NCBI RefSeq assembly: GCF_000377945.1
Contig: NZ_KB898951.1
Location: 1-34,923 of the forward strand
Reading direction: 5' to 3'
DNA from: Thioalkalivibrio sulfidiphilus
Lineage (GTDB): Bacteria; Pseudomonadota; Gammaproteobacteria; Ectothiorhodospirales; Ectothiorhodospiraceae
DNA: 34,923 nt
Below the pieces are notes generated by a model. It was not told the DNA's origin. It did no database searches and saw nothing but the letters and a program-made list of their open reading frames with translations. Of the stretch, positions 2,535-17,120 are shown one piece after another. Position 1 is the first letter of the stretch. Each line of letters begins with the position of its first letter. The translations under genes and the position numbers were made by a program.

Positions 2535-3101
2535 TTACTGACCCAGCAAGGCGTTGCGCAGGTTGCTGGACAGGGGCTCATCGCCCAGCCAGATGCTGAA
2601 GTAGGCCCGCGCGAAATCCCGGCCTTCCACGGTGACCAGTGGCTCGCCGTTGAGGCGCAGCACCGTGCCCTGGTCGGGCAGGTACTCCATCACGTAGCGA
2701 TCGCCGGGGCGCACGCTGCGGTAGGCATCGTGCAGCTGGCGTATACGGGGTCCCAGGGCCTGAAGTTCCTCGGCGCTGAGCTGTCTCTCGAGGATGGTGT
2801 TGGCGGCAAGCACCAGGTCGGAGGCCTTGATGTCCACGAAGTACTCGATCTCCAGGCGCTTGGGCTCGCCACGCTCGAGCAGGCTTGAGGCGGGCACGCC
2901 CTCGGGGCCGTAGAGTCCGGCGCCGTAGACGCGGATGAACACCGCGTAGCGGGCCAGCCCGGTACCTTTGAGCTCCAGGGTCTTGCCTGCCTCGTTCTGT
3001 AACTGGGTCGGGAACCGGGCATCGCCCACGGTGACCACGCTGGCCTGCGCCGGCAGGGTCGGGATCAGGAACAGCAGCAGTGCAGCGACGAACAGGATCA
3101 T
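2535..3101 (-). CDS. Chalcone-isomerase-like exported protein
   Basis: With the ATG at 3101 the product is 188 aa, the usual family length, and begins with a hydrophobic signal sequence ending LPAQA. The mature part shows the bacterial chalcone-isomerase-like pattern: FPTQLQ..GKTLELKGTGLARY, VYGAGLYGPEG near residue 60, and a C-terminal YFSIWLGDEPLSSNLRNALLG. Bacterial members are periplasmic proteins of unclear activity, thought to bind fatty acids or small hydrophobic ligands. It is the last gene of the leftward photo-stress unit, following the VOC gene. Upstream in-frame ATGs at 3152 and 3173 are possible alternatives; they would add a positively charged N-terminus and, for 3173, overlap the VOC gene by 8 bp. 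Confidence 0.8.
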   Translation of the reverse strand: MILFVAALLLFLIPTLPAQASVVTVGDARFPTQLQNEAGKTLELKGTGLARYAVFIRVYGAGLYGPEGVPASSLLERGEPKRLEIEYFVDIKASDLVLAANTILERQLSAEELQALGPRIRQLHDAYRSVRPGDRYVMEYLPDQGTVLRLNGEPLVTVEGRDFARAYFSIWLGDEPLSSNLRNALLGQ

Positions 3102-3165
3102 GCGGTCCGTGCAGGTGCTGCGATTGGGCTGCGCGAGCGTCCGCGCGCGCATGTAGGTATGCAGG

Positions 3166-3495
3166 CTAGACATAGGCGTTGTCCTCCAGGATCTCGACAG
3201 CGTTGCCTTCGCTGTCCTTGAGATAGATGGATGCGGTGCCGTCCCGGTGCGTCTTGAGTTCACCGAAGCTTCTGGCATTGGGATGCACCACGCCGATGTG
3301 CGGCGGGTGCTGTCCGGGGACCACCAGGGCGAGACTGGTGTTGGCGAATTTCAGCAGTGCCCAGGTCTCGTCCTGATAGGCGATGCGCACCCGGAACTGG
3401 TTGCGGTACCAGTCCACCGCCCGCGCCACGTTCTCCACCGGAATGGCCACGTGGTGGAGGGCGTCCAGATCCGCGTCGAAGACCTTTTGTTTCAT
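3166..3495 (-). CDS. VOC (glyoxalase/dioxygenase-fold) family protein
   Basis: This 109-residue single-module vicinal-oxygen-chelate protein contains LDALHHVAIPVENVARAVDWYR at the N-terminus, with the metal-ligand His in HHVAI, and ends SIYLKDSEGNAVEILE, with the ligand Glu in VEILE. Members are metal-dependent isomerases or dioxygenases, or binding proteins, acting as dimers. The substrate is unknown. Its ATG overlaps the DUF3833 stop (ATGA, 4 bp), so it is cotranscribed with the photo-stress unit. A role in detoxifying reactive carbonyl products of lipid oxidation would fit the context but is inference. Confidence 0.82.
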   Translation of the reverse strand: MKQKVFDADLDALHHVAIPVENVARAVDWYRNQFRVRIAYQDETWALLKFANTSLALVVPGQHPPHIGVVHPNARSFGELKTHRDGTASIYLKDSEGNAVEILEDNAYV

Positions 3496-5480: not shown

Positions 5481-6704
5481 TCAAGCCGGCTTGTGCAGAA
5501 GCACCTGCATCAGATCCGTGCGCCCGGTCCGGAAGCCCGCCTCGCAGTAGCTCAGGTAGTAGCGCCAGGTGCGCAGGAAGCGCTCGTCGTAGCCGAGCGC
5601 CGGCAGCACGTCGGCGTGGGCCATCACCTGGCGGTGCCACCGGGCCAGGGTCTCGGCGTAGTCCAGGCGGTGGAAGCTCTGGGCGCCCACATCCAGGCCC
5701 GCGGCCTCGGCCGCGGCGTTGAAGCGCTCCACCGAGGGCAGCATGCCGCCGGGGAAGATGTAGAGCTGGATGAAGTCGGCGGACTTGCGGTAGCGCTCGA
5801 ACACCGCCTCGTCGATGGTGATCACCTGCAGGGCGGCCCGCCCTGCGGGGCGCATGACCCGCTCCACGGTCTGGAAGTAGGTGGGCCAGTACTGCTCGCC
5901 CACGGCCTCGAACATCTCGATGGACACCACGTGGTCGAACTGCTCATCCAGATCCCGATAGTCCTGCAGGCGCAGGTCGACGCGATCGGACAGACCGGCG
6001 GCGGCGATGCGCTGTTGCGCGAAGGCCAGCTGCTCCCTGGAGAGGGTCAGGCCGGTGACCCGGTAGCCCTGGCGGGCGGCCAGTTCGGCGAAACCACCCC
6101 AGCCGCAACCGATCTCCAGGATGTGGGCGCCGGGCTCGGCATCGAGGCTGTCCAGCAGGCGCTGGTACTTGCGCGTCTGGGCGGTCTCCAGGGCCTCGTC
6201 CCTGGCCGCGAATATGGCGCTGGAGTAGGTCATGGTGCCGTCCAGCCAGAGCTTGTAGAACTCGTTGCCCAGGTCGTAGTGGAAGGATATGTTTGCGCGG
6301 CTGCCGCGCTTGCTGTTGCGGTTCATCAGGTGACGCAGTCTGCCCATGAAGGCGCTCAGCCGGTTGACCTCGATCACGCCGGACAGGCGGTGCTCGTTCA
6401 TGGCGCCCAGGGTGAGCAGGGCGCTCAGGCACGGTGTGCTCCACTCTCCCTGCATATAGCCTTCCGCGAAACCGATGTCGCCCCGTGTGAGCAGGCGGCG
6501 CAGCAGCCGCAAGGGACGGTGGATCTGGATGCTGGCGGAGGGGCCCGTGTGCTCGCCGGTGAGGGTGTGGCGATTACCATCGGCGGCGATCAGGGTCAGT
6601 TCGCCGTACTCCAGCTGTCCCAGGCGGCTGACCAGCCAGCGCAGGGGCAGGGGCAGCTTGGGAATGCTCAGTGCGGAGGCAACGCGGTCGGATGGCGTGG
6701 ACAT
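5481..6704 (-). CDS. CFA-type fatty-acid methyltransferase (UfaM/CfaA-like)
   Basis: This 407-residue SAM-dependent methyltransferase acts on unsaturated phospholipid acyl chains. The SAM-binding glycine loop is HILEIGCGWGGFAELA (about 194-209), preceded by the family segment FHYDLGNEFYKLWLDGTMTYS (about 141-161). The following YSS replaces the YSC seen in classical Cfa (E. coli Cys139), which separates it from housekeeping cyclopropane synthases. In Rhodobacter and Pseudomonas putida, related proteins in light- or singlet-oxygen-induced clusters make furan-containing fatty acids or methylated intermediates, which scavenge singlet oxygen. I infer that role here. Start and DUF1365 stop overlap as TGATG, so translation is coupled. 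Confidence 0.85.
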   Translation of the reverse strand: MSTPSDRVASALSIPKLPLPLRWLVSRLGQLEYGELTLIAADGNRHTLTGEHTGPSASIQIHRPLRLLRRLLTRGDIGFAEGYMQGEWSTPCLSALLTLGAMNEHRLSGVIEVNRLSAFMGRLRHLMNRNSKRGSRANISFHYDLGNEFYKLWLDGTMTYSSAIFAARDEALETAQTRKYQRLLDSLDAEPGAHILEIGCGWGGFAELAARQGYRVTGLTLSREQLAFAQQRIAAAGLSDRVDLRLQDYRDLDEQFDHVVSIEMFEAVGEQYWPTYFQTVERVMRPAGRAALQVITIDEAVFERYRKSADFIQLYIFPGGMLPSVERFNAAAEAAGLDVGAQSFHRLDYAETLARWHRQVMAHADVLPALGYDERFLRTWRYYLSYCEAGFRTGRTDLMQVLLHKPA

Positions 6705-7477
6705 CAGGACATCTCCTCTCGGGGCGGGGCGGGCTTGCTGTGGTATCGGGCGCCCTTGAGCCAGATCTTCAGGGCCTGCCAGTGGATCATGGTGATGACC
6801 TTGAAGGTCATCAGCGGCATGCGCAGCCAGGTGCGCAGCAGCTGTGTGTCGGTGAACGGGCGAGCCTCGCCGGTCTGGGTGGCGACCAGCATCAGCTCGC
6901 CCTGCTGGTATTCGTGGATCAGTACCCGCAGCTTCTCGTCGGGCACGGAGATGCGGAAACGGTACTCGGCGTCCATGTCGATGAACGGCGAGACGTGGAA
7001 GATCTTGTCCCGCTGCTGCCGCACCGGGTTCTGCATGGGCCGGCCCGCCTCGTGCAACAGATAGTGGTGGTGTTCGCCGAAGGTGTTGCTCACCTCGCAG
7101 ATCACCGCGCGCAGGCTGCCGTCGCGGTGATGGCAGAACCACACGCTCAGGGGGTTGAAGGCATAGCCCAGTACCCGGGGCATGCACAGCAGCCGGATCG
7201 CCCCACCCTCCAGGCGGATGCCGTGTTCCGCGAGCTTCGCCTCCACCCAGGGGCGCCAGGGGTTGCCGTCCCGGGGGCCGTGATCGCGGCTGCGCACGCT
7301 CAGCAGGTTGAAGCGCTCGAAGGAGAACAGGCGTGATTCCCGGCTGGTCTCCTCCAGGCGGTCGATGTCCAGGAGCAGGCTGAACACCGGGTACACGAAG
7401 CGATAACCCACGGGGAAACGACGCTGGTGCATCACCTGCGTGTGGTAGATGCGAGCTGCGGGCTGGGCGGTGTTCAC
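6704..7477 (-). CDS. DUF1365 family protein
   Basis: The GTG at 7477 overlaps the FAD oxidoreductase stop (GTGA) and gives 257 residues. The sequence shows the DUF1365 pattern: MHQRRFPVGYRFVYPVFSLLLD, then RVLGYAFNPLSVWFCH, EVSNTFGEHHHYLL, and KIFHVSPFIDMDAEYRF. The conserved His and Asn residues suggest a ligand- or metal-binding beta-rich domain, but no reaction is established. DUF1365 genes almost always sit between an FAD oxidoreductase and a CFA-type methyltransferase, exactly as here, so a role in converting methylated fatty acids (desaturation or furan formation) is likely. This is inference from context. No signal peptide is seen. Confidence 0.87.
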   Translation of the reverse strand: MNTAQPAARIYHTQVMHQRRFPVGYRFVYPVFSLLLDIDRLEETSRESRLFSFERFNLLSVRSRDHGPRDGNPWRPWVEAKLAEHGIRLEGGAIRLLCMPRVLGYAFNPLSVWFCHHRDGSLRAVICEVSNTFGEHHHYLLHEAGRPMQNPVRQQRDKIFHVSPFIDMDAEYRFRISVPDEKLRVLIHEYQQGELMLVATQTGEARPFTDTQLLRTWLRMPLMTFKVITMIHWQALKIWLKGARYHSKPAPPREEMS

Positions 7478-8811
7478 GCCGCCGCCACCCGGTCGGGCCG
7501 GGCCTGAACGTGCGCAGGCTCGCGGGATTCGCCGAGCCACGGCGGACTCACGCCCAGGCGCCAGGCCACCGTCTCGGCGGACTTGAGCCCGTCCTCGTGG
7601 AAACCGTAGCCGCACCAGGCACCGCAGAACCACAGGCGGTCCGCGCCCTGGATGCCCGGCACCCGTTTCTGTGCGGCCATGGCGGCGGCATCGAACACCG
7701 GGTGCTGGTAGGTCATCTCGCGGATGATGGTTTCCTCCCGGGGTTCGGTGAGCGGGTTCAGGCTCACCAGGTAGGGGCCCTCGTTCTCCGGCAGGCGGTG
7801 CAGGCGGTTCATCCAGTAGGTCACGGAGACCTGCGGGCTGCCGTCACCGAAATCCTTGGCCAGGTAGTTCCAGGAGGACCACACCGCCCGGCGCCTGGGC
7901 ATCAGGCGGGCATCGGTGTGCAGCAGGGTGCGGTTGGGCTGGTAGCGGAAGGCCCCCAGCACCTGGCGCTCCGCCTCCGTCGGGTTCTCGATCAGGGACA
8001 GGGTCTCGTCCGCGTGGCTGGCCATGACCACTTGGTCGAAGCGTTCCACCCGGCCATCTGCGCAGCGCACGTGTACCCCGTCGGGCCGGCGGCGCACCTG
8101 TACCACCGGGGAGCCGGTGTGCACGTCCCCGTTGAAGGTGTCCAACATGCGGCGCACGTACACGCGGCTGCCGCCGGTGACGGTGCGCCACTGGGGCCGG
8201 TCGGTGACGTTGAGCAGCCCGTGATTGCGGAAGAAGTTCAGGAACGAGATGAGCGGAAAGTCCAGCATCTGCCGGGTGGGGCAGGACCAGATGGCTGCGG
8301 CCATGGGCAGCAGGTAATCATCCCGGAAGCCGGCGCCGTAGCCTTCGGTGAACAGGTAGTCCCCCAGGCTCACGTCCGGCACCCAGTTGGTCTCCAGCAG
8401 TTCCTTGCCGTGGCGGTTGAAGCGCAGGATGTCGCGCACCATGCGCAGGAAGCGCGGCCGCACCAGGTTGCCGCGCTGGGCGAACAGGGTGTTGAGATTG
8501 GTGCCCGCGTACTCCATGCGCCCGTCGCCGATCGAGGCGCTGAAGGACATGTCCGTGTCCTGGGAGGCGATGCCCAGGTGGCGGAACAGGCTGGTGAGCT
8601 CCGGGTAGTTGTGCTCGTTGAACACCACGAAGCCGGTGTCCACCGGCACCGGACCCCGGGGGCTGTCCACCGTCAGGGTGTTGCTGTGGCCGCCCACGTA
8701 TTCATTGCGCTCGAACAGGGTGACCTGGTGGCGCTTGTCCAGCAGCCAGGCGCTGGCCAGACCGGAAATGCCGCCGCCGATGACTGCGATGCGGGAATCT
8801 GCGTGGATCAT
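7474..8811 (-). CDS. FAD-dependent amine-oxidase-type oxidoreductase
   Basis: This 445-residue flavoprotein begins with the dinucleotide-binding fold IAVIGGGISGLASAW (8-22), followed by LFERNEYVGGHSNT, the classic amine oxidase/phytoene desaturase entry. The C-terminal FAD motif is LWFCGAWCGYGFHEDGLKSA (about 400-419). Homologues lead the FAD-DUF1365-CFA gene set and probably oxidise or desaturate a lipid. The ATG at 8811 has AGGAG upstream. It is the first gene of the seven-gene leftward unit, and its promoter region holds the LitR-type boxes shared with the divergent peroxidase gene. The last 30 residues are low-complexity and poorly conserved by eye. Confidence 0.88.
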   Translation of the reverse strand: MIHADSRIAVIGGGISGLASAWLLDKRHQVTLFERNEYVGGHSNTLTVDSPRGPVPVDTGFVVFNEHNYPELTSLFRHLGIASQDTDMSFSASIGDGRMEYAGTNLNTLFAQRGNLVRPRFLRMVRDILRFNRHGKELLETNWVPDVSLGDYLFTEGYGAGFRDDYLLPMAAAIWSCPTRQMLDFPLISFLNFFRNHGLLNVTDRPQWRTVTGGSRVYVRRMLDTFNGDVHTGSPVVQVRRRPDGVHVRCADGRVERFDQVVMASHADETLSLIENPTEAERQVLGAFRYQPNRTLLHTDARLMPRRRAVWSSWNYLAKDFGDGSPQVSVTYWMNRLHRLPENEGPYLVSLNPLTEPREETIIREMTYQHPVFDAAAMAAQKRVPGIQGADRLWFCGAWCGYGFHEDGLKSAETVAWRLGVSPPWLGESREPAHVQARPDRVAAA

Positions 8812-8861: not shown

Positions 8862-8891
8862 CTTATACACCATCTGTACAATTTTTGTAAA
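8862..8891 (-). promoter_or_regulatory. Predicted promoter of the FAD-DUF1365-CFA unit
   Basis: On the minus strand TTTACA (8891-8886) is followed after 18 bp by TATAAG (8867-8862), giving a leader of about 45 nt to the ATG at 8811. The elements coincide with three of the four operator boxes, so bound regulator would block RNA polymerase. Confidence 0.55.
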
Positions 8892-8901
8892 TTGGTGTAC
8901 A
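8864..8901. promoter_or_regulatory. LitR/CarH-type operator, four boxes at 11-bp spacing
   Basis: Four direct TNTANA boxes lie at 8864-8869 (TATACA), 8875-8880 (TGTACA), 8886-8891 (TGTAAA) and 8896-8901 (TGTACA), so their starts are 11, 11 and 10 bp apart. CarH of Thermus binds a series of 11-bp repeats with core TNTACA, and P. putida LitR-type sites also use TGTACA units. The boxes lie between the divergent FAD-oxidoreductase and peroxidase genes. A second set with the same spacing precedes the regulator gene. Confidence 0.75.
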
Positions 8902-8949: not shown

Positions 8950-9492
8950 ATGCGCCGAATGAGCTTGCTTGCGATCCTGACGCTGCTGCTGGCGATGCCC
9001 GCCGCGCAGGCCGCCTGTCCCGACTACCTGGACGTGAACAAGCGCCCCCTGACCGGGGGCGAGGCCCTCAACCTGTGCGAGACCTATCGCGGTCAGGTGC
9101 TGCTGGTGGTCAACACCGCCAGCAAGTGCGGCTACACCCGCCAGTTCGAGGGCCTGGAGGCCCTGTACGCCCGCTACCAGGACCGCGGGCTGGTGGTGAT
9201 GGGCTTCCCCTCCAATGACTTCGGTGGCCAGGAGCCGGGTACCGAGGAGCAGATCCTGGAGTTCTGCCGCCTGACCTACGGGGTGCAGTTCCCCATGTTC
9301 GAGAAGACCCATGCCGCCCGGGGGCAGGCTGATCCCCTGTACCGGGGGCTGGCCCGGGAGGCGGGGGAGTTTCCGGCCTGGAACTTCCACAAGTACCTGA
9401 TCGACCGTGAGGGCCGCGTGGTGGGCAGCTTCCCGAGCCGGGTGACCCCGGAGGATCCTGCCTTGATCCGGGCCATCGAGGCGCTTCTGTGA
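8950..9492 (+). CDS. Exported glutathione-peroxidase-family protein
   Basis: This 180-residue thiol peroxidase is preceded by GAAGGAG. The signal peptide is residues 1-22 (ending AAQAA), so it acts in the periplasm. The catalytic set is complete: Cys60 in NTASKCGYT, Gln94 in DFGGQEPG, and Trp144-Asn145 in FPAWNFHKYLI. Cys106 (EFC) is placed like the resolving Cys of thioredoxin-dependent members. It reduces hydrogen peroxide or lipid hydroperoxides. As the first rightward gene from the LitR-boxed promoter, it would remove peroxides formed under light. It overlaps the next gene by GTGA. Confidence 0.92.
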   Translation: MRRMSLLAILTLLLAMPAAQAACPDYLDVNKRPLTGGEALNLCETYRGQVLLVVNTASKCGYTRQFEGLEALYARYQDRGLVVMGFPSNDFGGQEPGTEEQILEFCRLTYGVQFPMFEKTHAARGQADPLYRGLAREAGEFPAWNFHKYLIDREGRVVGSFPSRVTPEDPALIRAIEALL

Positions 9493-10280
9493 GCGCACAG
9501 GCCCCCGTTCATCCTGCAGGCCACAGCCCTGCCGCATGGGTGGACGAGGCCCTGTCGGGCGCGGAGGTGGTGATCTTCCGCTCCCGGCTCACGGATGTGC
9601 GGCCGCTCAAGACCTGGCTCTCCCGGCACCCAGAGGTGCGGGTGCGGGAGGTGCTGATGGAGATGGGTAGCGGCGAGCAGCGTGAGCGTTTCCAGGGGCT
9701 CAAGGCACGCACGCACTGGGAGACCCTGCCCCAGATCTTCATCAACGGACAGTTCGTGGGCGGGCAGGTGGAATTCTTCGGCCATCCGCTGGTGACCGGA
9801 CGGGACGTGACCCCGGCGACCCCCGGGGCCTCCCTGCCGTCGGCCGCCCTGGTCAAGGCCCTGGGCTACGCGGGACTCGTGCCCTTCGGAGTGGGTCTGC
9901 TGATGCTGCTGTTCGGGATGCCGCTGCCCCGGTCCTCTGCCGGCGCCTGGCTGGTCGCCTACGGCGCGGTGATCGCCACCTTCCTGGGGGCGGTGCACTG
10001 GGGACAGGCCCTGGCCGGACGCTTCCCGGCGAGGCAGGCGGGCAGGGCCATGGTCTGGGCCGTGGTGCCATCCATCCTGGCCTGGCTGACGCTGCTGTTG
10101 CCGGTGATCTGGGCCCTGCCCCTGCAGGTGGTCCTGTTCGCCCTGATCCTGGCGGTGGACGGCCGTTTCGGTGCGCAGCTGGGCTGGCCCGGGTATTATC
10201 GCCGCTTGAGACTTATCCTGAGTGCGGCAGTCATGATTATCCTGGCCACGGCATGGCTGATTCTGTTGGTAACCCCTTAA
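9489..10280 (+). CDS. Degenerate glutaredoxin fused to DUF3429 membrane domain
   Basis: Starting at a GTG that overlaps the peroxidase stop, this gives 263 aa. Residues about 15-100 follow the glutaredoxin fold: VVIF at 27-30 and [14 protein letters not shown] at 79-92 match the substrate-binding TVPxIFxxGxxxGG. The stretch where CPYC should be reads RSRLTDV, and the whole protein contains no cysteine, so it cannot do dithiol chemistry. Residues about 120-260 form a four- to five-segment membrane domain typical of DUF3429 ([27 protein letters not shown]). DUF3429 proteins occur in light-induced clusters; the role is unknown. The glutaredoxin part may serve only as a binding or anchoring module. 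Confidence 0.83.
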
Positions 10281-10302: not shown

Positions 10303-10932
10303 ATGAAAGCACAAGCGAAGGAATACCTGATGAGCCATCACGACTGCTGCGAGCAGGAAGACGATTTCCCGAGTGCCGATGCCGAACAGCGCATGGCCGA
10401 GGACTACACCCGCATCATTCGCGGCCTTGGGGAGGATCCCGATCGCAACGGCCTGATCGGTACCCCGCTGCGCGCGGCCCGGGCCATGTCCTACCTGACC
10501 CGCGGTTATCACCAGAGCCTCGACGAGCTGGTCAACGGCGCCCTGTTCGAGACCGACAACGACGAGATGGTGCTGGTGCGCGACATCGAGTTCTATTCCC
10601 TGTGCGAGCACCACCTGCTGCCCTTCCTGGGCCGCTGCCACGTAGCCTACCTGCCCAAGGGCAGGGTGATCGGCCTGTCCAAGATCGCCCGCATCGTGGA
10701 CATGTTCGCCCGCCGCCTGCAGATCCAGGAGACCCTCACGCGACAGATCGCCGAGGCCATCGAGTCGGTGACCGACGCCCGGGGCGTGGCGGTGGTCATG
10801 GAGGCAAAGCACATGTGCATGATGATGCGCGGCGTGGAGAAGCAGAACTCCACCATGACCACCTCCATGATGACCGGCACCTTCCGCAACGATGCCCGCA
10901 CCCGGGCGGAATTCATGGGCTTGATTCGTTGA
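10303..10932 (+). CDS. folE: GTP cyclohydrolase I
   Basis: This 209-residue enzyme converts GTP to 7,8-dihydroneopterin triphosphate, the first step of folate and pterin synthesis. The zinc ligands are Cys101 and His104 ([10 protein letters not shown]) and Cys172 (HMCMMMRGV), all intact. [28 protein letters not shown] and the C-terminal [10 protein letters not shown] complete the active-site pattern. The start has GGAG about ten bases upstream; ATG 10330 is an alternative. Being in the photo-stress cluster, it probably raises pterin or methenyltetrahydrofolate supply for the photolyase antenna. It converges on the photolyase gene across a repeat-filled 210-bp gap. Confidence 0.96.
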
Positions 10933-11142: not shown

Positions 11143-12594
11143 CTAAAAATCATCCTTCATCCCTTTGATCACCTCCCACATCTCCAGCGCCTGCCGGCGG
11201 CTTTCCGCGAGATCAACGATGGGCCGGGGATAGTTGCCACCCAGGCGTACACCCGCCGCCTTGAGGATCGCCTCCGGCGCCTCCCAGGGCCTGTGGATGT
11301 ATTTGACCGGCAGCTTCGCCAGTTCCGGCACCCACTGGCGCACGTAGTCGCCGTTAGGGTCGAAGCGTTCGCCCTGAAGCACGGGATTGAACACCCGAAA
11401 GTAGGGTGCGGCGTCGGCGCCGCAGCCGGCGGTCCATTGCCAGCCCAGGGTGTTGCTGGCCAGGTCCGCGTCCACCAGGGTGTCCCAGAACCAGCGGGCC
11501 CCGGTGAGCCAGTGGGCGCCCAGGTTCTTGGTGAGCAGGGAGGCGACGATCATGCGCACCCGGTTGTGCATCCAGCCGGTGGCCCACAGGGCGCGCATGG
11601 CGGCGTCCACCAGGGGGATGCCGGTGCGGCCCCGTTGCCAGGCCCGCAGTGTCTCTTCGTCCAGTTTGCGCCAGGGCAGCTTGAGAAAGCGCGGGTCCAG
11701 GGGCTCGTCGCTGGTCCGGGGGAAGTGGTAGAGCAGGTGATGGGCGAACTCCCGCCAGCCGATCTCGCGCAGGAAGCTGTCGATGCCCTTGTGGGCCGCC
11801 TTGCCGCCATGCCGGTCCTTGGCCACCTGGCAGGCGGCGGCCGCCTGGCGGGGGCCGAGCTCGCCGAAGTGCAGGTAGGGGGAGAGGCGTGAACTGCCGT
11901 CCCGGTCGGGGCGGTTGCGCATCTCGTCGTAGTCCGCCACCGCCTCGTCCATGAAATCCGCAAGGCGCGCCAGGGCACCCGCCTCGCCGGGCTGCCAGAG
12001 TTCGGTAAAGCCTACGGCCCAGTCCAGTTCGGGCAACAATCCGAGGGATTCGAGGGTCTCGCTCGGGGGAAGGGTGGCGGGGGTCCTGATGTGCTTGGGA
12101 GCAGGGGTCACGTCCACCGGCACGCCCAGTCCCAGGCAGGCCTTCCAGAAGGGGGTGAACACCTTGTAGGGGGCGCCGTCTTGCTTGGCCACCGTCCAGG
12201 GCTCGAACAGCAGGGCGGCATTGAAGCTCTCTGCCCGGATGCCCTGATCCCGCAGTTGCTGCTTGATGCCGGTGTCCCGGGCAATCAGCGCCGGTTCGTA
12301 GAGCCGGTTCCAAAGCACCTGTTGGGCCCCCGTCTCCCGGATCAGGCCCTGCAGGGTCTCAAGACTCGCACCCTGGCGGATGACGAGATCCGCTCCCCGG
12401 GCGCGCAGGTCTTCGCCCAGGGCCGCAAGGCTGTGGTGCAGCCACCAGAGGCTCGCGCCGCCGGGTGCCCAGTCGCCTTCCTCCTGCGGGGCGTGGATGT
12501 AGACGGGGATCACCTCGCCGTCTTCCAGCGCCCGGGCCAGCGCCGGGTTGTCGGTCAGGCGCAGGTCGCGCCGGAACCAGAGCAGGGTCCGCAT
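11143..12594 (-). CDS. phrB: Deoxyribodipyrimidine photolyase, class I type
   Basis: This protein of about 483 residues repairs cyclobutane pyrimidine dimers using blue light and FADH-. It starts RTLLWFRRDLRLTDNPAL, the antenna-domain signature. The FAD domain includes SRLSPYLHFGEL, TGIPLVDAAMRALWATGWMHNR, and DADLASNTLGWQWTAGCGADAAPYFR, which holds the electron-transfer Trp residues and the Asp/Asn contacts to FAD. It is the last of four overlapping leftward genes headed by the LitR-like regulator. The ATG at 12594 shares a base with the SDR stop (TGATG); a GTG three bases earlier is equally possible. Confidence 0.95.
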   Translation of the reverse strand: MRTLLWFRRDLRLTDNPALARALEDGEVIPVYIHAPQEEGDWAPGGASLWWLHHSLAALGEDLRARGADLVIRQGASLETLQGLIRETGAQQVLWNRLYEPALIARDTGIKQQLRDQGIRAESFNAALLFEPWTVAKQDGAPYKVFTPFWKACLGLGVPVDVTPAPKHIRTPATLPPSETLESLGLLPELDWAVGFTELWQPGEAGALARLADFMDEAVADYDEMRNRPDRDGSSRLSPYLHFGELGPRQAAAACQVAKDRHGGKAAHKGIDSFLREIGWREFAHHLLYHFPRTSDEPLDPRFLKLPWRKLDEETLRAWQRGRTGIPLVDAAMRALWATGWMHNRVRMIVASLLTKNLGAHWLTGARWFWDTLVDADLASNTLGWQWTAGCGADAAPYFRVFNPVLQGERFDPNGDYVRQWVPELAKLPVKYIHRPWEAPEAILKAAGVRLGGNYPRPIVDLAESRRQALEMWEVIKGMKDDF

Positions 12595-13340
12595 CACCGG
12601 GCCCTCACCATGGGGCGCACGGCGGTGAAGCCGCCGTCCACGGGCAACACCTGGCCGGTGATCCAGTCGGCTTCCTCGCAGACCAGCCAGCAGGCGGCCC
12701 GGGCCAGGTCCTCGGCGGCGCCGTAGCGGCCCAGGGGGTATTGGGCGCGGATCTGTTCCTCCGCCGTCTGGGCGGAGAACAGCCGCTCCGTGGCCGCCGT
12801 GCGGGTCAGGCCCGGGGCGATGGCGTTGATGCGGATGCCCTGGGGGGCATAGGTGGCGGCCGCCGAGCGCACCAGGGCCTCGATGCCGCCCTTGGCCATG
12901 GCGATGGCCTCGTGGTTGGAGACGCCCACCCGGGCCACCACGGAGCTGACCAGCACCACCTTGCCCGGCCGTTTCGCCGTAAGCAGCGCCTGCACATAGG
13001 CGCGCAGGGTGAAGAAGGCGCTGTCCAGGTTGGCGGCCAGGGTCTGGCGATAGGTGTCTTCGTCGGTGCGGTGCAGGGGGGCGAGCAGGGTGCTGCCCAC
13101 GGCGTGGATCAGGGCGTCGGGTGGTGCGCCGAAGGTCTCCATGCAGGCGGCGAGCGCCTGCTCCGCGCCCGCGCCGGTGGAGACGTCTGCCTGGATGGGC
13201 AGGAACTGTTCGGATGCGCCGGACAGGCGTGCGGCATCCCGGCTCACGCCGGCCACCCGCCAGCCCCGGGACTGCAACAGGGTGGTGGCGGCCTGGCCGA
13301 GTCCGCCGGCGGCGCCGGTGATCAGTGCGGTGCGGGTCAT
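12594..13340 (-). CDS. SDR-family protein lacking the catalytic Tyr
   Basis: This 248-residue Rossmann-fold protein has an intact nucleotide loop, TGAAGGLG (8-15), and a structural SDR end (VLPVDGGF). Ser132/133 is in place, but the YxxxK site reads IAMAK (146-150), so the catalytic Tyr is replaced by Ile while Lys150 stays. The NAG motif is HAVGS. It should bind NAD(P) but may not reduce a ketone in the usual way. Tyr-less SDRs with NHEAIA-like sequences appear, from memory, in other photolyase clusters. Its start overlaps the cryB stop (ATGA), and its stop overlaps phrB, so the four genes are translationally coupled. Confidence 0.85.
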   Translation of the reverse strand: MTRTALITGAAGGLGQAATTLLQSRGWRVAGVSRDAARLSGASEQFLPIQADVSTGAGAEQALAACMETFGAPPDALIHAVGSTLLAPLHRTDEDTYRQTLAANLDSAFFTLRAYVQALLTAKRPGKVVLVSSVVARVGVSNHEAIAMAKGGIEALVRSAAATYAPQGIRINAIAPGLTRTAATERLFSAQTAEEQIRAQYPLGRYGAAEDLARAACWLVCEEADWITGQVLPVDGGFTAVRPMVRAR

Positions 13341-14911
13341 GTTCGGTCTCCGGTGAGGGTTGTGCGGATGTCTTGAGCTTTCTGGCGGATGGCCGCCAGG
13401 CGCTCGGGGGAAAGTCGGTCCAGGTTGCGCCACTGCAACGCGGTGCGCGGATGCTTCGAGAACCTCGCCCGGTGCCGGTCCAGGAAGTCCCAGTACAGGG
13501 TGGTGAACGGGCAGGCCTGCTCGCCCAGGGCCTCCTGCGGTTGGTAGCGGCAGTGCTCGCAGTAGTTGCTCATGCGTTTGATGTACTGGCCCGAGGCCAC
13601 GTAGGGCTTGGAGGCCATGCGCCCGCCGTCGGCGTACTGGGACATGCCCAAGGTGTTGGGCAACTCGACCCATTCCACCGCGTCCACGTACACCGCCAGG
13701 TACCATTCATGGAGCGCCCGGGGTCTGACACCCAGCAGCTGGGCGAACAGGCCGGTGACCATGAGCCGCTGGATGTGGTGGGCATAGCCGAGTTCGAGCG
13801 TCTGGCCCAGGGTCTCGGCCAGGCAGCGCATGTCCGTCTCCCCGGTCCAGTAGAAGCCGGGCAGATCCTCCCCGGCCTCCAGCGCGTTCCATTCAAGCCA
13901 CTCGGGCATGTGCTGCCAGTACAGGCCGCGCACGTACTCACGCCAGCCCAGGACCTGGCGAATGAAACCCTCCACCGAGGCGAGCGGCGCACGGCCATCC
14001 CGCCAGGCGGCCTCGGCGGCCTCGATCACCTCCCGGGGGGAGATGAGCTTGAGGTTCAGGGCCGCGCTGATGCGCGCGTGGTAGAGCCAGGGCTCGCCGG
14101 TCCACAGGGCATCCTGGTAGGGGCCGAAGGCAGGCAGGCGGAGGTCGAAGAAGTCCTTGAGCGCCGCCCGGGCCTGTTCCGGGGTGATCGGCCAGTCGAA
14201 GGCCCGAAGCGATCCCGGGTGGTCGGGGAAATGGCGTTCCACGTCCGCCATGGCCTCACGGGTCAGGGCATCGGGTTCGAAGCCCAGGGGTGCCGGCAGC
14301 ATCCCGGGTCCGGTCTTGGGCAGGGGCTTGCGGTTCTCGGTGTCGAAGTTCCAGCGGCCGCCGGCGGGCTGGCCGTCTTCCATGAGCACGCCCAGCTGTT
14401 CGCGCACGTGGCGGTAGAAATGTTCCAGCCGGGTCTGTTTGCGCCGCCCGGCCCAGTGCCTGAACGTCTCCAGCGAGACGAGAAAGTGTGCGTCTTCCCG
14501 GATCTCCAGGGGCACGCCGGCCGCCTCGCAGACCCGGGTCAGGGACTGTAGCACCCGATGGTCGCCGGGCTGGGTGAGGATCACCCTCTCGGGGCGCAGT
14601 CGCGCCAGGTCCGCGCCCAGGGCCCCGGCGAGCGAGCCATGGGGATGGTGGCCGAGGCGGTGATACACCAGGGGCCGGCCGGCCTGCCGGCAGGCGTCCC
14701 GGAAGTGGCGCATGGCGGCCAGGAACAGGGTGGAGCGGGCCTTGTGGGACCAGACGTGGGTGGACTCTTCGGCCACCTCCGCCATCCACAGGCAGTCACG
14801 GGCGGAATCCAGCTCGATGAGCGGACGCGCGCGAGGGTCGAGCTGGTCACCCAGCACGACGATCAGGTGTCTGATTGGCGGACCAAACTCAGACCTGGAC
14901 GAGGCTTCCAT
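13337..14911 (-). CDS. cryB: Iron-sulfur photolyase/cryptochrome (FeS-BCP, CryB/PhrB type)
   Basis: This 524-residue protein has the four cluster-binding cysteines at 363, 451, 454 and 467. Their spacing (88, 3, 13) equals that of Agrobacterium PhrB, a (6-4) photolyase with a [4Fe-4S] cluster, FAD and a lumazine antenna. The segment GGRMASKPYVASGQYIKRMSNYCEHC is the family hallmark. It starts with the antenna domain HLIVVLGDQLDP. It probably repairs (6-4) photoproducts, and it could also signal light, as CryB does in Rhodobacter. It overlaps the regulator gene by 23 bp and the SDR gene by ATGA. The start is set by MEASSRSEF, just before the conserved N-terminal strand. Confidence 0.93.
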   Translation of the reverse strand: MEASSRSEFGPPIRHLIVVLGDQLDPRARPLIELDSARDCLWMAEVAEESTHVWSHKARSTLFLAAMRHFRDACRQAGRPLVYHRLGHHPHGSLAGALGADLARLRPERVILTQPGDHRVLQSLTRVCEAAGVPLEIREDAHFLVSLETFRHWAGRRKQTRLEHFYRHVREQLGVLMEDGQPAGGRWNFDTENRKPLPKTGPGMLPAPLGFEPDALTREAMADVERHFPDHPGSLRAFDWPITPEQARAALKDFFDLRLPAFGPYQDALWTGEPWLYHARISAALNLKLISPREVIEAAEAAWRDGRAPLASVEGFIRQVLGWREYVRGLYWQHMPEWLEWNALEAGEDLPGFYWTGETDMRCLAETLGQTLELGYAHHIQRLMVTGLFAQLLGVRPRALHEWYLAVYVDAVEWVELPNTLGMSQYADGGRMASKPYVASGQYIKRMSNYCEHCRYQPQEALGEQACPFTTLYWDFLDRHRARFSKHPRTALQWRNLDRLSPERLAAIRQKAQDIRTTLTGDRT

Positions 14912-15848
14912 GAAGCCGTCTCGCGGCCTTGTCCGGCTCGGTGCCCAGGGACTGGGCGCCGATGAGTTCCAGGGCGGGCGGCAGCGGGTCGAAGCCGGGA
15001 CCCATGGCGAACACCGGCAGGCGCTCGCCACCCGCCTCGGCGCCGGGCCAGTGGGCCAGCCGGGCGCTGTGCTGCAGGGGGCTGTCGCTGTAGAGCACGA
15101 TGGCGCTGGCGCCGGCGCGCCGTGCCAGGGCTTCGAGCCCGGCCACCGGGGCCCCCGTGGTGAGCAGGTGCGCATGGATGCCCCGTTGTGCCGAAGCCAG
15201 GGCGAACAGCAGCAGGCCCAGGTCGCCCGGGGATTCGTGCATCGGCACGGCGAGCACGCGCAAGGCATCGGCACTGCACTGCTGATGGCGCAGGCGGGTG
15301 TCCAGGGTCTGGCGCAGCCAGCGGTTGAGGAAGGCCAGTTCGGCACCGGCCACCACGTCCGTGACAGGGCGTTCCTGGAGCATGCGCTGCAGGGGCAGGG
15401 CCAGCTGCTGGATGACCGTCTCCAGGGAGAACAGTGACAGGGCGTCTTCCCAGGTGGCGCTCATGGCGGGGACATCCAGGCTGCCGATGGCCTCGCGCAG
15501 ACGCATGCGGTACTCGTTCCAGCCGCGGCTTTCGCGTCCCGGCGGCGGGGTCTGCGGCGCAGCCGTGCTCTCGGCGGGCGGGGTCTCGGTGCTCTCCAGC
15601 AGTTGTCCCACCTGGCCGATGGATACGCCCTGATCAAGCAGTCGCAGAACCCGGTTGATGAGTTCGATGTCCTCGCCGCTGTAGAGGCGGTGGCCCTTGG
15701 GTGTGCGCTTGGGTCGAATCAGGCCATAGCGGCGCTCCCAGGCGCGCAGGGTCACGGGATGAACGCCCGTCAGTGCACACACCGTGCGGATGGGGAACAG
15801 CCCTTCCTCGGTCGGCAGGTCTTCAATGGAGTCCGTGGTGATCGCCAT
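14889..15848 (-). CDS. litR: LitR/CarH-family MerR regulator without B12 ligands
   Basis: This 319-residue regulator has a MerR winged-helix N-terminus (about 18-85: FPIRTVCALTGVHPVTLRAWERRYG, then RLYSGEDIELI). A linker and a C-terminal region (about 115-319) follow, matching the helical bundle plus Rossmann B12 domain of CarH. By eye, the CarH ligands are missing. The W-x9-EH helix reads PVTDVVAGAELAF (161-173), and the lower-axial His loop (ExHxxG) reads HESPGDLG (204-211). This resembles class II LitR (PplR1 of P. putida), which does not need B12. The start at 15848 is chosen because the promoter lies immediately upstream; the open frame continues to 16178 through the operator. It is autoregulated by its own boxes. 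Confidence 0.88.
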   Translation of the reverse strand: MAITTDSIEDLPTEEGLFPIRTVCALTGVHPVTLRAWERRYGLIRPKRTPKGHRLYSGEDIELINRVLRLLDQGVSIGQVGQLLESTETPPAESTAAPQTPPPGRESRGWNEYRMRLREAIGSLDVPAMSATWEDALSLFSLETVIQQLALPLQRMLQERPVTDVVAGAELAFLNRWLRQTLDTRLRHQQCSADALRVLAVPMHESPGDLGLLLFALASAQRGIHAHLLTTGAPVAGLEALARRAGASAIVLYSDSPLQHSARLAHWPGAEAGGERLPVFAMGPGFDPLPPALELIGAQSLGTEPDKAARRLHGSLVQV

Positions 15849-15857
15849 GGAAATAAT

Positions 15858-15908
15858 TGTACAACAATTGTATAAAGGGTCCAGTGTTTCGCGTACAAAT
15901 ATTTTACA
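15858..15908. promoter_or_regulatory. LitR/CarH-type operator between litR and SDR
   Basis: Boxes read on the plus strand are TGTACA (15858-15863), TGTATA (15869-15874), CGTACA (15892-15897) and TTTACA (15903-15908). Their starts are 11, 23 and 11 bp apart, that is, one helical register with one position vacant. This is the same arrangement as at 8864-8901, placed between divergent litR and the second SDR gene. Confidence 0.72.
15869..15898 (-). promoter_or_regulatory. litR: Predicted litR promoter
   Basis: On the minus strand TTGTAC (15898-15893) and TATACA (15874-15869) are separated by 18 bp, 20 bp upstream of the ATG at 15848. Both hexamers are themselves operator boxes, which predicts direct autorepression. 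The leader would be only about 13 nt, with no clear ribosome site. Confidence 0.6.
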
Positions 15909-15927: not shown

Positions 15928-16677
15928 ATGGAATCACCCGTGGCATGGCTGATCGGCGCGAGCAGCGGCATTGGCGCCGAGCTGGCGCGGCGCCTGGCCG
16001 AGGCCGGCTGGCAGGTGGCGCTGACCGCCCGGCGGGCGGAGCGCCTGGAGGCCCTGTGCCAGGCATCGCCTTCGCAGTTATACAGTTTTCCCGGGGATGT
16101 CACCGACCCGGAGGGGCTCTCTGCCCTGGCTGCGCGTATCGAGGCGGAACTGGGGCCGGTCGAACTCTGCATCCTCAACGCCGGCGACTACGAGCCCATG
16201 GGTCTGGACGACTTCGATGTCAACCTGTTCCGACGGCTCATGGAGGTGAACTACCTGGGCGTGGTCCATGGCCTGGCCGCCGTGATGCCCGCCATGCGTG
16301 CCCGGGGGCGGGGACAGATCCTGATCACCGCGAGTCTGGCCGGTTACCGGGGGCTGCCCCGGGCCGCGCCCTACGGGGCCACCAAGGCGGCGCTGATCAG
16401 CCTGGCGGAATCCCTGCAGCCGGAACTGGCCGCCGAGGGGGTGCGCCTGCGGGTGATCAATCCGGGCTTCGTGAAGACCCCGCTCACGGACAAGAACCGC
16501 TTCGAGATGCCCTTCCTCATGACTACGGAACAGGCCGCAGAGGCCATCATGAAGGGATTGCACAAGGATGCCTTCGAGATCCGCTTTCCCTGGCGTTTCG
16601 CCCTGATGATGGGCCTGCTGAGGCTGTTGCCCAACGGCCTCTACCTGCGCATCGCCCGGCGCATGGTGTCGGCATGA
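15928..16677 (+). CDS. Classical SDR-family oxidoreductase
   Basis: This 249-residue NAD(P)-dependent dehydrogenase/reductase has an intact catalytic set: GASSGIG (10-16), NAG (84-86), Ser136, Tyr149 and Lys153 in YGATK. The C-terminal 30 residues (FPWRFALMMGLLRLLPNGLYLRI) are hydrophobic and may attach it to the membrane, fitting a lipid substrate. CCGGAGGG precedes the ATG. It is divergent from litR and shares its boxed promoter. An SDR followed by an NTF2-fold gene is also found, from memory, in sigmaE-ChrR photo-oxidative clusters of Vibrio and Shewanella. Confidence 0.9.
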   Translation: MESPVAWLIGASSGIGAELARRLAEAGWQVALTARRAERLEALCQASPSQLYSFPGDVTDPEGLSALAARIEAELGPVELCILNAGDYEPMGLDDFDVNLFRRLMEVNYLGVVHGLAAVMPAMRARGRGQILITASLAGYRGLPRAAPYGATKAALISLAESLQPELAAEGVRLRVINPGFVKTPLTDKNRFEMPFLMTTEQAAEAIMKGLHKDAFEIRFPWRFALMMGLLRLLPNGLYLRIARRMVSA

Positions 16678-17120
16678 ACGGCCCCGTGGATCTCGCCGAG
16701 CGGGTCCAGGACTATGCGGAGTTCTTCGCCACCCTGACGCCGCAATCCCTGGACAGGCTCGTTGAACTGTTCGCCCCCGATGCCTGCTTCAAGGACCCGT
16801 TCAACGACGTGACCGGCGTGCCCGCCATCCGCGCGGTGTTCGAGCACATGTACAGGGTCTGTCCGGCGCCCCGCTTCGAGGTGCGGGAGTGGGCCCTGAG
16901 CGGGCAGACCGCCTTCATCCGCTGGCGCTTCACCGACGGCCCTGCCGCCGGGCGGCGCATGGCCCTGGACGTGGACGGCATGAGCCGCGTGATGTTCGAC
17001 GAGGCGGGCCGGGTGGTGGAGCACGTGGATTACTGGGACCCGGCGGCAGCGATCTATGATCGCATCCCGGTATTCGGCGCGCTGCTGCGAGCCTTGCGGC
17101 GTAAACTGTCCGCGGTGTGA
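16674..17120 (+). CDS. SnoaL/NTF2-fold family protein
   Basis: The ATG overlaps the SDR stop (ATGA) and gives 148 residues. The NTF2-like cone fold is recognisable: LAERVQDYAEFFATLTPQSLDRLVELFAPDACFKDPFNDVTG at the N-terminus, then PRFEVREWALSGQTAFIRWRF and the C-terminal RVVEHVDYWDPAAAIYDRIPVFG. Members bind small hydrophobic molecules or act as isomerases or cyclases. The partner SDR suggests a shared substrate, possibly a lipid-derived carbonyl, but none can be named. It is the last gene of the rightward photo-stress unit. Confidence 0.85.
   Translation: MNGPVDLAERVQDYAEFFATLTPQSLDRLVELFAPDACFKDPFNDVTGVPAIRAVFEHMYRVCPAPRFEVREWALSGQTAFIRWRFTDGPAAGRRMALDVDGMSRVMFDEAGRVVEHVDYWDPAAAIYDRIPVFGALLRALRRKLSAV

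Follow-up and report, generated by a model that had tools for sequence, protein, structure and literature searches.

The gene at positions 9489–10280 on the forward strand of the window codes for a 263-aa membrane protein in which a thiol-free version of the glutaredoxin domain, designated here as Grx*, is fused to a DUF3429 domain. The window is the whole analysed stretch of 34,923 nt from Thioalkalivibrio sulfidiphilus (contig NZ_KB898951.1). The cysteine-free state of the active site is a family trait and not a one-off, as the place of the catalytic cysteine is taken by threonine or serine in all 55 distinct homologous domains. Grx* is a known fold in a new version, a conserved Cys-to-Thr/Ser glutaredoxin domain fused to DUF3429. 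Loci and genomes are given below by our own L and G numbers.

Gene and Protein

The gene and its parts are arranged as follows:

9489–10280, forward strand, Grx*-DUF3429 gene, 263 aa, GTG start, no internal stop, Pfam matches to Glutaredoxin and DUF3429
9522–9806, forward strand, thiol-free glutaredoxin-fold domain (Grx*), residues about 12–106, from the AlphaFold2 model and the alignment with 3rhb
9582–9596, forward strand, Ser32-x-Leu34-Thr35-Asp36 in place of CPYC, from hhalign, four MAFFT modes, and 55 homologous domains
9726–9764, forward strand, Leu80-Pro81 and Gly91-Gly92 of the glutaredoxin fold, residues 80–92, each pair in 55/55 domains
9843–10271, forward strand, DUF3429 membrane domain with five helices, the first one broken, residues 119–261, from Pfam and the models

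The translation of 9489–10280 has no cysteine among its 263 residues, as an earlier note made from the sequence alone had claimed, and both segments quoted there, of 13 and 14 residues, are found in it as given. The fusion of a glutaredoxin domain to a membrane domain, also described there, is borne out by Pfam and by the AlphaFold2 model. The membrane half clearly belongs to DUF3429 (PF11911), matched at residues 122–256 with E 3e-28 and 99.2 bits against a curated cut-off of 39.1; other DUF3429 proteins are mostly solo. The Glutaredoxin profile (PF00462) is matched at residues 49–90 with 28.4 bits (cut-off 22.9), and the match spans only profile positions 25–60 of 60, with the CxxC part outside it. 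This profile is matched by 20 of the 24 Grx* family members at E ≤ 1.

Active Site and Its Conservation

The alignment of Grx-DUF3429 homologues that the earlier note had proposed was run on 72 rows (69 fused and three stand-alone). Identical domain sequences were merged because many loci stem from the same organisms, and 55 distinct domains were obtained, with L072, whose domain is incomplete, left out of the count. CxxC is absent from all 55 and cysteine does not occur at positions 35–38 in any of them, so the CxxC/CxxS active site that defines PF00462 is lacking. A sequencing frameshift that hides CPYC, one of two objections foreseen in the note, is thereby excluded. The other, homologues with a cysteine close by, holds marginally: position 31, four before residue 35, is cysteine in two of the 55 domains, and 35–38 never are. 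Any cysteine at all was seen in 14/55 domains, at scattered positions, and 46 of 70 fused rows, read from the start adopted for each, are entirely free of it. The observation in the note was right, and the trait is wider than it claimed.

At position 35, the site of the catalytic cysteine, Thr was found in 39 and Ser in 16 of the 55 domains, followed at position 36 by Asp (52) or Glu (3). Ser32, Leu80-Pro81, and Gly91-Gly92 are present in 55/55, while position 33 within the motif is variable. Position 95 is acidic in 49 domains (Glu in 48, Asp in one) and not acidic in six. Outside the motif, Met59 (53/55), Arg65 (54/55), and Phe68 (53/55, and one Tyr) are nearly invariant. The GSH-site features of PF00462, namely Pro of Thr-Val-Pro, Gly-Gly, and the acidic residue, are present, and Ser32, Leu-Pro, Gly-Gly, and acidic 95 appear compatible with a retained GSH-type groove.

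When Grx* was aligned in hhalign with 11 dithiol glutaredoxins from the same genomes and their relatives (prob 97.3, E 1.6e-11), Thr35 was paired with the catalytic Cys, Asp36 with Pro, Val37 with Tyr, and a one-residue gap with the second Cys. Thr35 also falls on the catalytic Cys in all four MAFFT modes, and Glu95 on the Asp that never varies in the canonical glutaredoxins; the residue opposite the second Cys varies between modes. The register is uncertain by one residue, because the PDB profile alignment with 5zvl sets Leu34, not Thr35, at the first Cys. With monothiol glutaredoxins, the region of the motif either stays unaligned or is aligned ambiguously, and the profile alignment begins after the motif. 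As there is no thiol, no mixed disulfide with GSH can form; hence, ordinary glutaredoxin catalysis by Grx* is excluded on established chemistry.

Predicted Structure and Topology

The full-length AlphaFold2 model, computed with 31 aligned sequences, has a mean pLDDT of 89.3 and pTM of 0.72. Its N-terminal half is made of helix 14–22, strand 27–31, helix 38–45, strand 52–56, and helix 62–75, and continues with strands 82–85 and 88–91, short helices to residue 103, and membrane helices at 119–261. Glutaredoxins head the PDB structural matches listed for the Grx* model, with 2fls in Foldseek (E 4.4e-4) and 3rhb in VIA-align (Z 12.3, rmsd 2.1 over 92 residues, model range 12–106). That the glutaredoxin fold is kept, as stated in the earlier note, agrees with this high-confidence prediction, in which glutaredoxins are the best solved matches. 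The DUF3429 domain modelled alone reached pLDDT 95.6. It had no sequence match in the PDB at E up to 1 and its model none in Foldseek at E ≤ 0.001; the best match in VIA-align, a designed four-helix bundle with Z 10.1, lies below the informative level for helical bundles. The C-terminal helical domain of glutathione transferases (GST) is absent from the Grx*-DUF3429 model.

The mean net charge of loops in the 31 aligned fusions is −0.7 between helices 1 and 2, +1.2 between helices 2 and 3, and +3.3 between helices 4 and 5. By the positive-inside rule, these charges place the N-terminal Grx* in the cytosol, a predicted location based on charge. The linked glutathione peroxidase (GPx) proteins open with segments resembling signal peptides when inspected by eye. 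GPx and Grx* would then lie across the membrane from each other, and therefore a scaffold with direct contact between GPx and Grx* is unlikely. The coupling to the peroxidase looks regulatory rather than physical.

Distribution, Phylogeny, and Selection

DUF3429 was matched in 32 of 47 genomes of the window's order. The first 30 order loci read are all Grx-like fusions without CPYC, and the remaining two, L071 and L072, are fusions with incomplete sequence. In the class sample, DUF3429 was present in 68/369 genomes at E ≤ 0.001, ten of which have an N-terminal Grx* (frames below about 230 aa were excluded by length). Eight class fusions were found beyond the order, all without CxxC. The phylum sample gave DUF3429 in 92/398 genomes at E ≤ 1e-8, with nine frames of at least 230 aa besides that of the window. 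In the class, 16/229 genomes matched the Grx* profile at E ≤ 1e-8, and 12 of them still did so at E ≤ 1e-24; in the phylum sample of 398 genomes, the window's own genome was the only one to match at E ≤ 1e-10. Among named genomes, the best 80 of 530 confirmed DUF3429 places were taken, and 30 of them are fused; the carriers in these best 80 are Thioalkalivibrio, Spiribacter, a Natronospira MAG, a Halothiobacillus MAG, and other gammaproteobacterial MAGs. The carriers include salt- and alkali-loving bacteria.

The class and phylum loci that were read, with frames below about 230 aa excluded by length alone, included no dithiol or monothiol glutaredoxin fused to DUF3429. Dithiol and monothiol profiles run on L036–L072, L170–L183, and L208–L211 recovered known Grx* fusions only, and loci L001–L005 were excluded from the fusion scan. 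Four class matches below the cut-off with long frames had no glutaredoxin match, and only L211 fits the DUF3429 profile. The plasmid search yielded only two Burkholderia matches, both in the DUF3429 part. Within the window's family, DUF3429 is found in 0/10 genomes of genus g2 and in 29/30 of genus g4. Two further DUF3429 matches are probable pseudogenes, G755:C1:1065495–1065938 with in-frame stops (three TGA and one TAA) and G358:C64:157396–157806 with one in-frame TAG.

A tree was built from 48 rows, in which the 27 of Grx*, including the stand-alone ones, make up a single group against 21 other glutaredoxins with support 81/92; the alignment is short, and 17 of the 45 inner branches are open. 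A second glutaredoxin-like family without CxxC, with GMSQNP or GMRQNP at the site, was found by the Grx* profile (L166:2431–2811 and L168:1758–2153, both on the reverse strand). Its place next to Grx* in the tree is weakly supported.

The dN/dS of Grx* is 0.05–0.22 in 12/12 close pairs, which were picked by hand, and that of the DUF3429 half in the pair of the window and L023 is 0.43 on dS of 0.08. The values of Grx* support its conservation under purifying selection, and not decay. A pseudogene reading of the window's gene was ruled out by the intact ORF, the invariant motif in homologues, and the low dN/dS.

Gene Neighbourhood

The following features surround the gene in the window:

5481–7187, reverse strand, ORF with cyclopropane-fatty-acid-synthase-like gene (CMAS), true start inside
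6704–7633, reverse strand, DUF1365 gene, its ORF running into the neighbouring one at the 5′ end, true start uncertain
7474–8811, reverse strand, FAD-dependent amine-oxidase-like gene, divergent from GPx
8864–8901, forward strand, operator-like tandem repeats TATACA-N5-TGTACA-N5-TGTAAA-N4-TGTACA, between the flavoprotein and GPx genes
8950–9492, forward strand, exported glutathione peroxidase (GPx) gene, GSHPx 2e-31, N-terminus signal-peptide-like by eye
10303–10932, forward strand, folE, GTP cyclohydrolase I, next gene downstream
11143–12597, reverse strand, DNA photolyase
12594–13706, reverse strand, ORF with short-chain dehydrogenase (SDR), true start inside
13337–15346, reverse strand, ORF with photolyase-related protein DPRP, true start inside
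14889–15848, reverse strand, MerR-family regulator, LitR-like candidate

The TGA stop of GPx overlaps the GTG start of Grx*-DUF3429 by four bases (GTGA, 9489–9492). The coupling to a peroxidase gene put forward in the earlier note therefore stands for the window, but GPx does not define the fusion, as it immediately precedes the fusion gene in 22 of the 49 distinct fused loci. In 10 of the 73 solo DUF3429 loci, the DUF3429 gene likewise directly follows GPx, which thus associates with DUF3429 both with and without Grx*. Loci were merged for these counts by their last 140 residues, and 3/52 fused and 4/77 solo loci were omitted, their upstream sequence being too short. In 28 of 30 distinct linked GPx proteins, an extra N-terminal pair of cysteines (C-x19-C) precedes the segment of the peroxidatic cysteine; the pair is absent from GPx of L123 and L126. 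It is possibly an additional disulfide or a recycling pair.

Among the 30 fused loci in the best 80 of 530 named places, CFA synthase, DUF1365, and flavin oxidase occur together in 16, folE also in 16, and a MerR gene in L073 and L078 only. Relatives of the Thioalkalivibrio type have much of the window's setting in common with it, with CFA synthase, DUF1365, and flavin oxidase, often GPx and folE, and the CarH/LitR-like repeats. Photolyase or DPRP was found near none of these 30, with flanks of up to 5 kb and often less. About a third of the named fused loci are without the gene block; GPx and CFA genes were not seen in the available sequence, on some contigs short, of L074, L075, L076, L082, L085, L086, L093, L094, L096, L097, and L098. 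Chalcone_3 is near Grx*-DUF3429 in the Spiribacter-type loci L075, L076, and L085, together with DUF3833 in L075, and also in the window at 2535–3278. Of the stand-alone Grx* genes, L163 follows GPx and lies beside a MerR gene in a genome (G251) outside the 68 class genomes with a DUF3429 match, L165 directly follows a photolyase in a genome (G200) with a separate DUF3429 (L057), and L164 adjoins a gene of the glyoxalase family.

Promoter Repeats and Regulation

The four 6-mers at 8864–8901, three TnnACA and one TnnAAA, follow each other in steps of 11, 11, and 10 bp. CarH binds tandem 11-bp repeats 5′-nnnnTnnACAn-3′ according to excerpts of PMC9304148, and CarH/LitR regulons share with the window's promoter such 11-bp tandem repeats, as described in the same excerpts. 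Both these repeats and a nearby MerR regulator (14889–15848, reverse strand), as expected of a CarH/LitR operon, are present in the window. The pattern of the first three repeats has one exact site in the window; with up to two mismatches allowed, it was found in none of 100 shuffles. In the genome, a closely similar three-repeat pattern has a single exact site. The class II LitR site of Pseudomonas has another spacing, N12 (excerpts of PMC9758184). This class II box, T(G/A)TACA-N12-TGTA(C/T)A, is absent from the promoter at up to two mismatches; elsewhere in the window two sites with two mismatches were found against 0.25 expected. Single TGTACA words number five in the window against 1.7 expected, which is weak evidence alone. 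An ORF at 15945–17120 on the forward strand points away from the MerR gene, and a TGTACA at 15858 lies in the gap that separates the two; its upstream codons look SDR-Rossmann-like by eye, and SnoaL_2 is at its end.

Of 38 fused loci examined, 20 have at least two adjacent repeats with steps of 10–12 bp in the 1.2 kb upstream; two of the loci, L066 and L127, are identical in sequence. The other 18, some with little upstream sequence, have no such repeats. In L080, L081, L083, L084, L087, L088, and L115, where no GPx was found, the repeats are 51–158 bp before the Grx* start used. A repeat pair is present in three of 13 other loci examined. As neither photolyase nor DPRP is near the 30 named fusions, the link of the relatives to light rests on repeats and other genes.

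The same kinds of genes as in the window, i.e., exported GPx (PgpD), photolyase, CFA synthase, photolyase-related protein, and SDR, belong to the RpoE2 regulon of Shewanella. Exported GPx, photolyases, CFA synthase, and SDR are described there as a photo-oxidative regulon under RpoE2-ChrR (excerpts of PMC4336711). Unlike the window, the Shewanella regulon uses an ECF sigma factor, and Grx*-DUF3429 is unmentioned in those excerpts. Light-responsive operons of another gene are the subject of the excerpted PMC11417400. Judging from gene content and repeats, the setting of Grx*-DUF3429 is probably a CarH/LitR-type light/photo-oxidative-stress cluster, and we infer that its operon is probably induced by light.

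Proposed Function and Alternative Explanations

Our preferred, tentative reading is that Grx*-DUF3429 may be a membrane protein of light or photo-oxidative stress, with a cytosolic glutaredoxin-fold domain that is without thiol chemistry and keeps the ligand groove. A MerR/LitR-type repressor would block the operator in the dark, and in light the operon would yield exported GPx and Grx*-DUF3429. DUF3429 would anchor Grx* on the cytosolic side of the inner membrane, where Grx* would bind GSH or a gamma-glutamyl or peptide end with the Thr/Ser hydroxyl at the former place of Cys. The binding of GSH would be non-covalent because the nucleophilic thiol for a mixed disulfide is gone. Occupancy of Grx* or binding of a partner would then set the activity or assembly of DUF3429. 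Grx* would in this model be a non-redox binding module by which DUF3429 is controlled or positioned, and it might have a role of sensor or scaffold, as proposed in the earlier note. An unlikely proposal is that Grx* is a hydroxyl-type glutaredoxin, in which Thr/Ser35 and Asp36 replace Cys, handle GSH without mixed disulfides, and couple the cytosolic glutathione state to DUF3429 under light stress, either by GST-like activation or by GSH/GSSG read-out.

Grx* shares with glutaredoxins (PF00462; dithiol CPYC and monothiol CGFS) the fold, Pro, Gly-Gly, the acidic residue, and profile similarity. It differs from them in having no CxxC or CxxS, in Thr/Ser-Asp/Glu at the place of Cys-Pro, in a loop shorter by one residue, in the DUF3429 fusion as a rule, and in a narrow spread in the samples searched. 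Despite the profile and the predicted fold, Grx* should not be regarded as a glutaredoxin in function, because the defining active site is lost; with the Cys gone, GSH-dependent disulfide reductase activity is not expected. SH3BGR/SH3BGRL proteins (PF04908) likewise have a Grx/Trx fold without an enzymatic site, and the comparison is one of how they work; these proteins are eukaryotic and are not known to be membrane-fused. Membership in SH3BGR, which the appearance of the motif had brought to mind, was rejected, as the Pfam match in one of 24 members (E 0.17) is not significant. Ser-type glutathione transferases, as Grx*, have a hydroxyl where helix 1 of the Trx-like domain begins. In the theta, phi, tau, and delta classes of these enzymes, a catalytic Ser at the equivalent place donates a hydrogen bond to GS−. 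Grx* has neither sequence match to GST nor the GST C-terminal helical domain.

If the fold were reused as a GSH-independent adaptor for protein–protein interaction with DUF3429, in the manner of SH3BGRL and with GSH binding lost, the absence of acidic 95 in 6/55 domains, the variable position 33, and the near invariance of M59, R65, and F68 outside the motif would be accounted for. Grx/Trx folds that lack a thiol and serve in non-enzymatic binding do exist, e.g., SH3BGRL proteins, which are reported to be actin-capping and without a canonical enzymatic site (PMC12827327). We consider this adaptor somewhat unlikely: Ser32, Leu-Pro, Gly-Gly, and the mostly acidic residue of the GSH site are retained, a pure adaptor need not hold Thr/Ser at the Cys position in 55/55 domains, and only one of 24 members has the SH3BGR match.

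The hydroxyl residue in 55/55 domains and the invariant groove residues would also suit a Ser/Thr-type enzyme activating GSH, with Thr/Ser35 at the start of helix 1 hydrogen-bonded to GS− and conjugation or peroxidase activity on photoproducts of lipids at the membrane, and genes for fatty-acid modification, often with GPx, adjoin. Such an enzyme is quite unlikely, as Pfam matches of the 24 members included no GST family at E up to 1, the model has no GST C-terminal domain, and Asp at the next position would presumably disfavour the thiolate. It is hardly credible that Grx* is a relic, an ex-glutaredoxin with function lost and carried as a passenger of DUF3429. The partial Pfam match of the window's protein, limited to the C-terminal part of the profile, would fit a relic, but the low dN/dS, the motif invariant in 55/55 domains, and the existence of free-standing copies argue against it.

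Significance

The human protein TMEM69 is also a DUF3429 protein. No description of the Grx*-DUF3429 fusion was found in titles or abstract openings of open-licence papers; the term DUF3429 also occurs in PMC3597751, and the excerpts of PMC6504805 and PMC2757866 have no bearing on the fusion. According to parts of the 2016 paper on Bcmimp1 of Botrytis (PMC4767927), no DUF3429 member had been functionally characterised before, and deletion mutants of this DUF3429 gene had more ROS. DUF3429 occurs in bacteria and in eukaryotic mitochondria, and the Grx* fusion in a probable light-stress operon offers a handle on its function. A natural Cys-to-Thr/Ser glutaredoxin is also a test of whether such a groove is usable without thiol chemistry. 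If true, the hydroxyl-type glutaredoxin reading would give DUF3429 a biochemical function.
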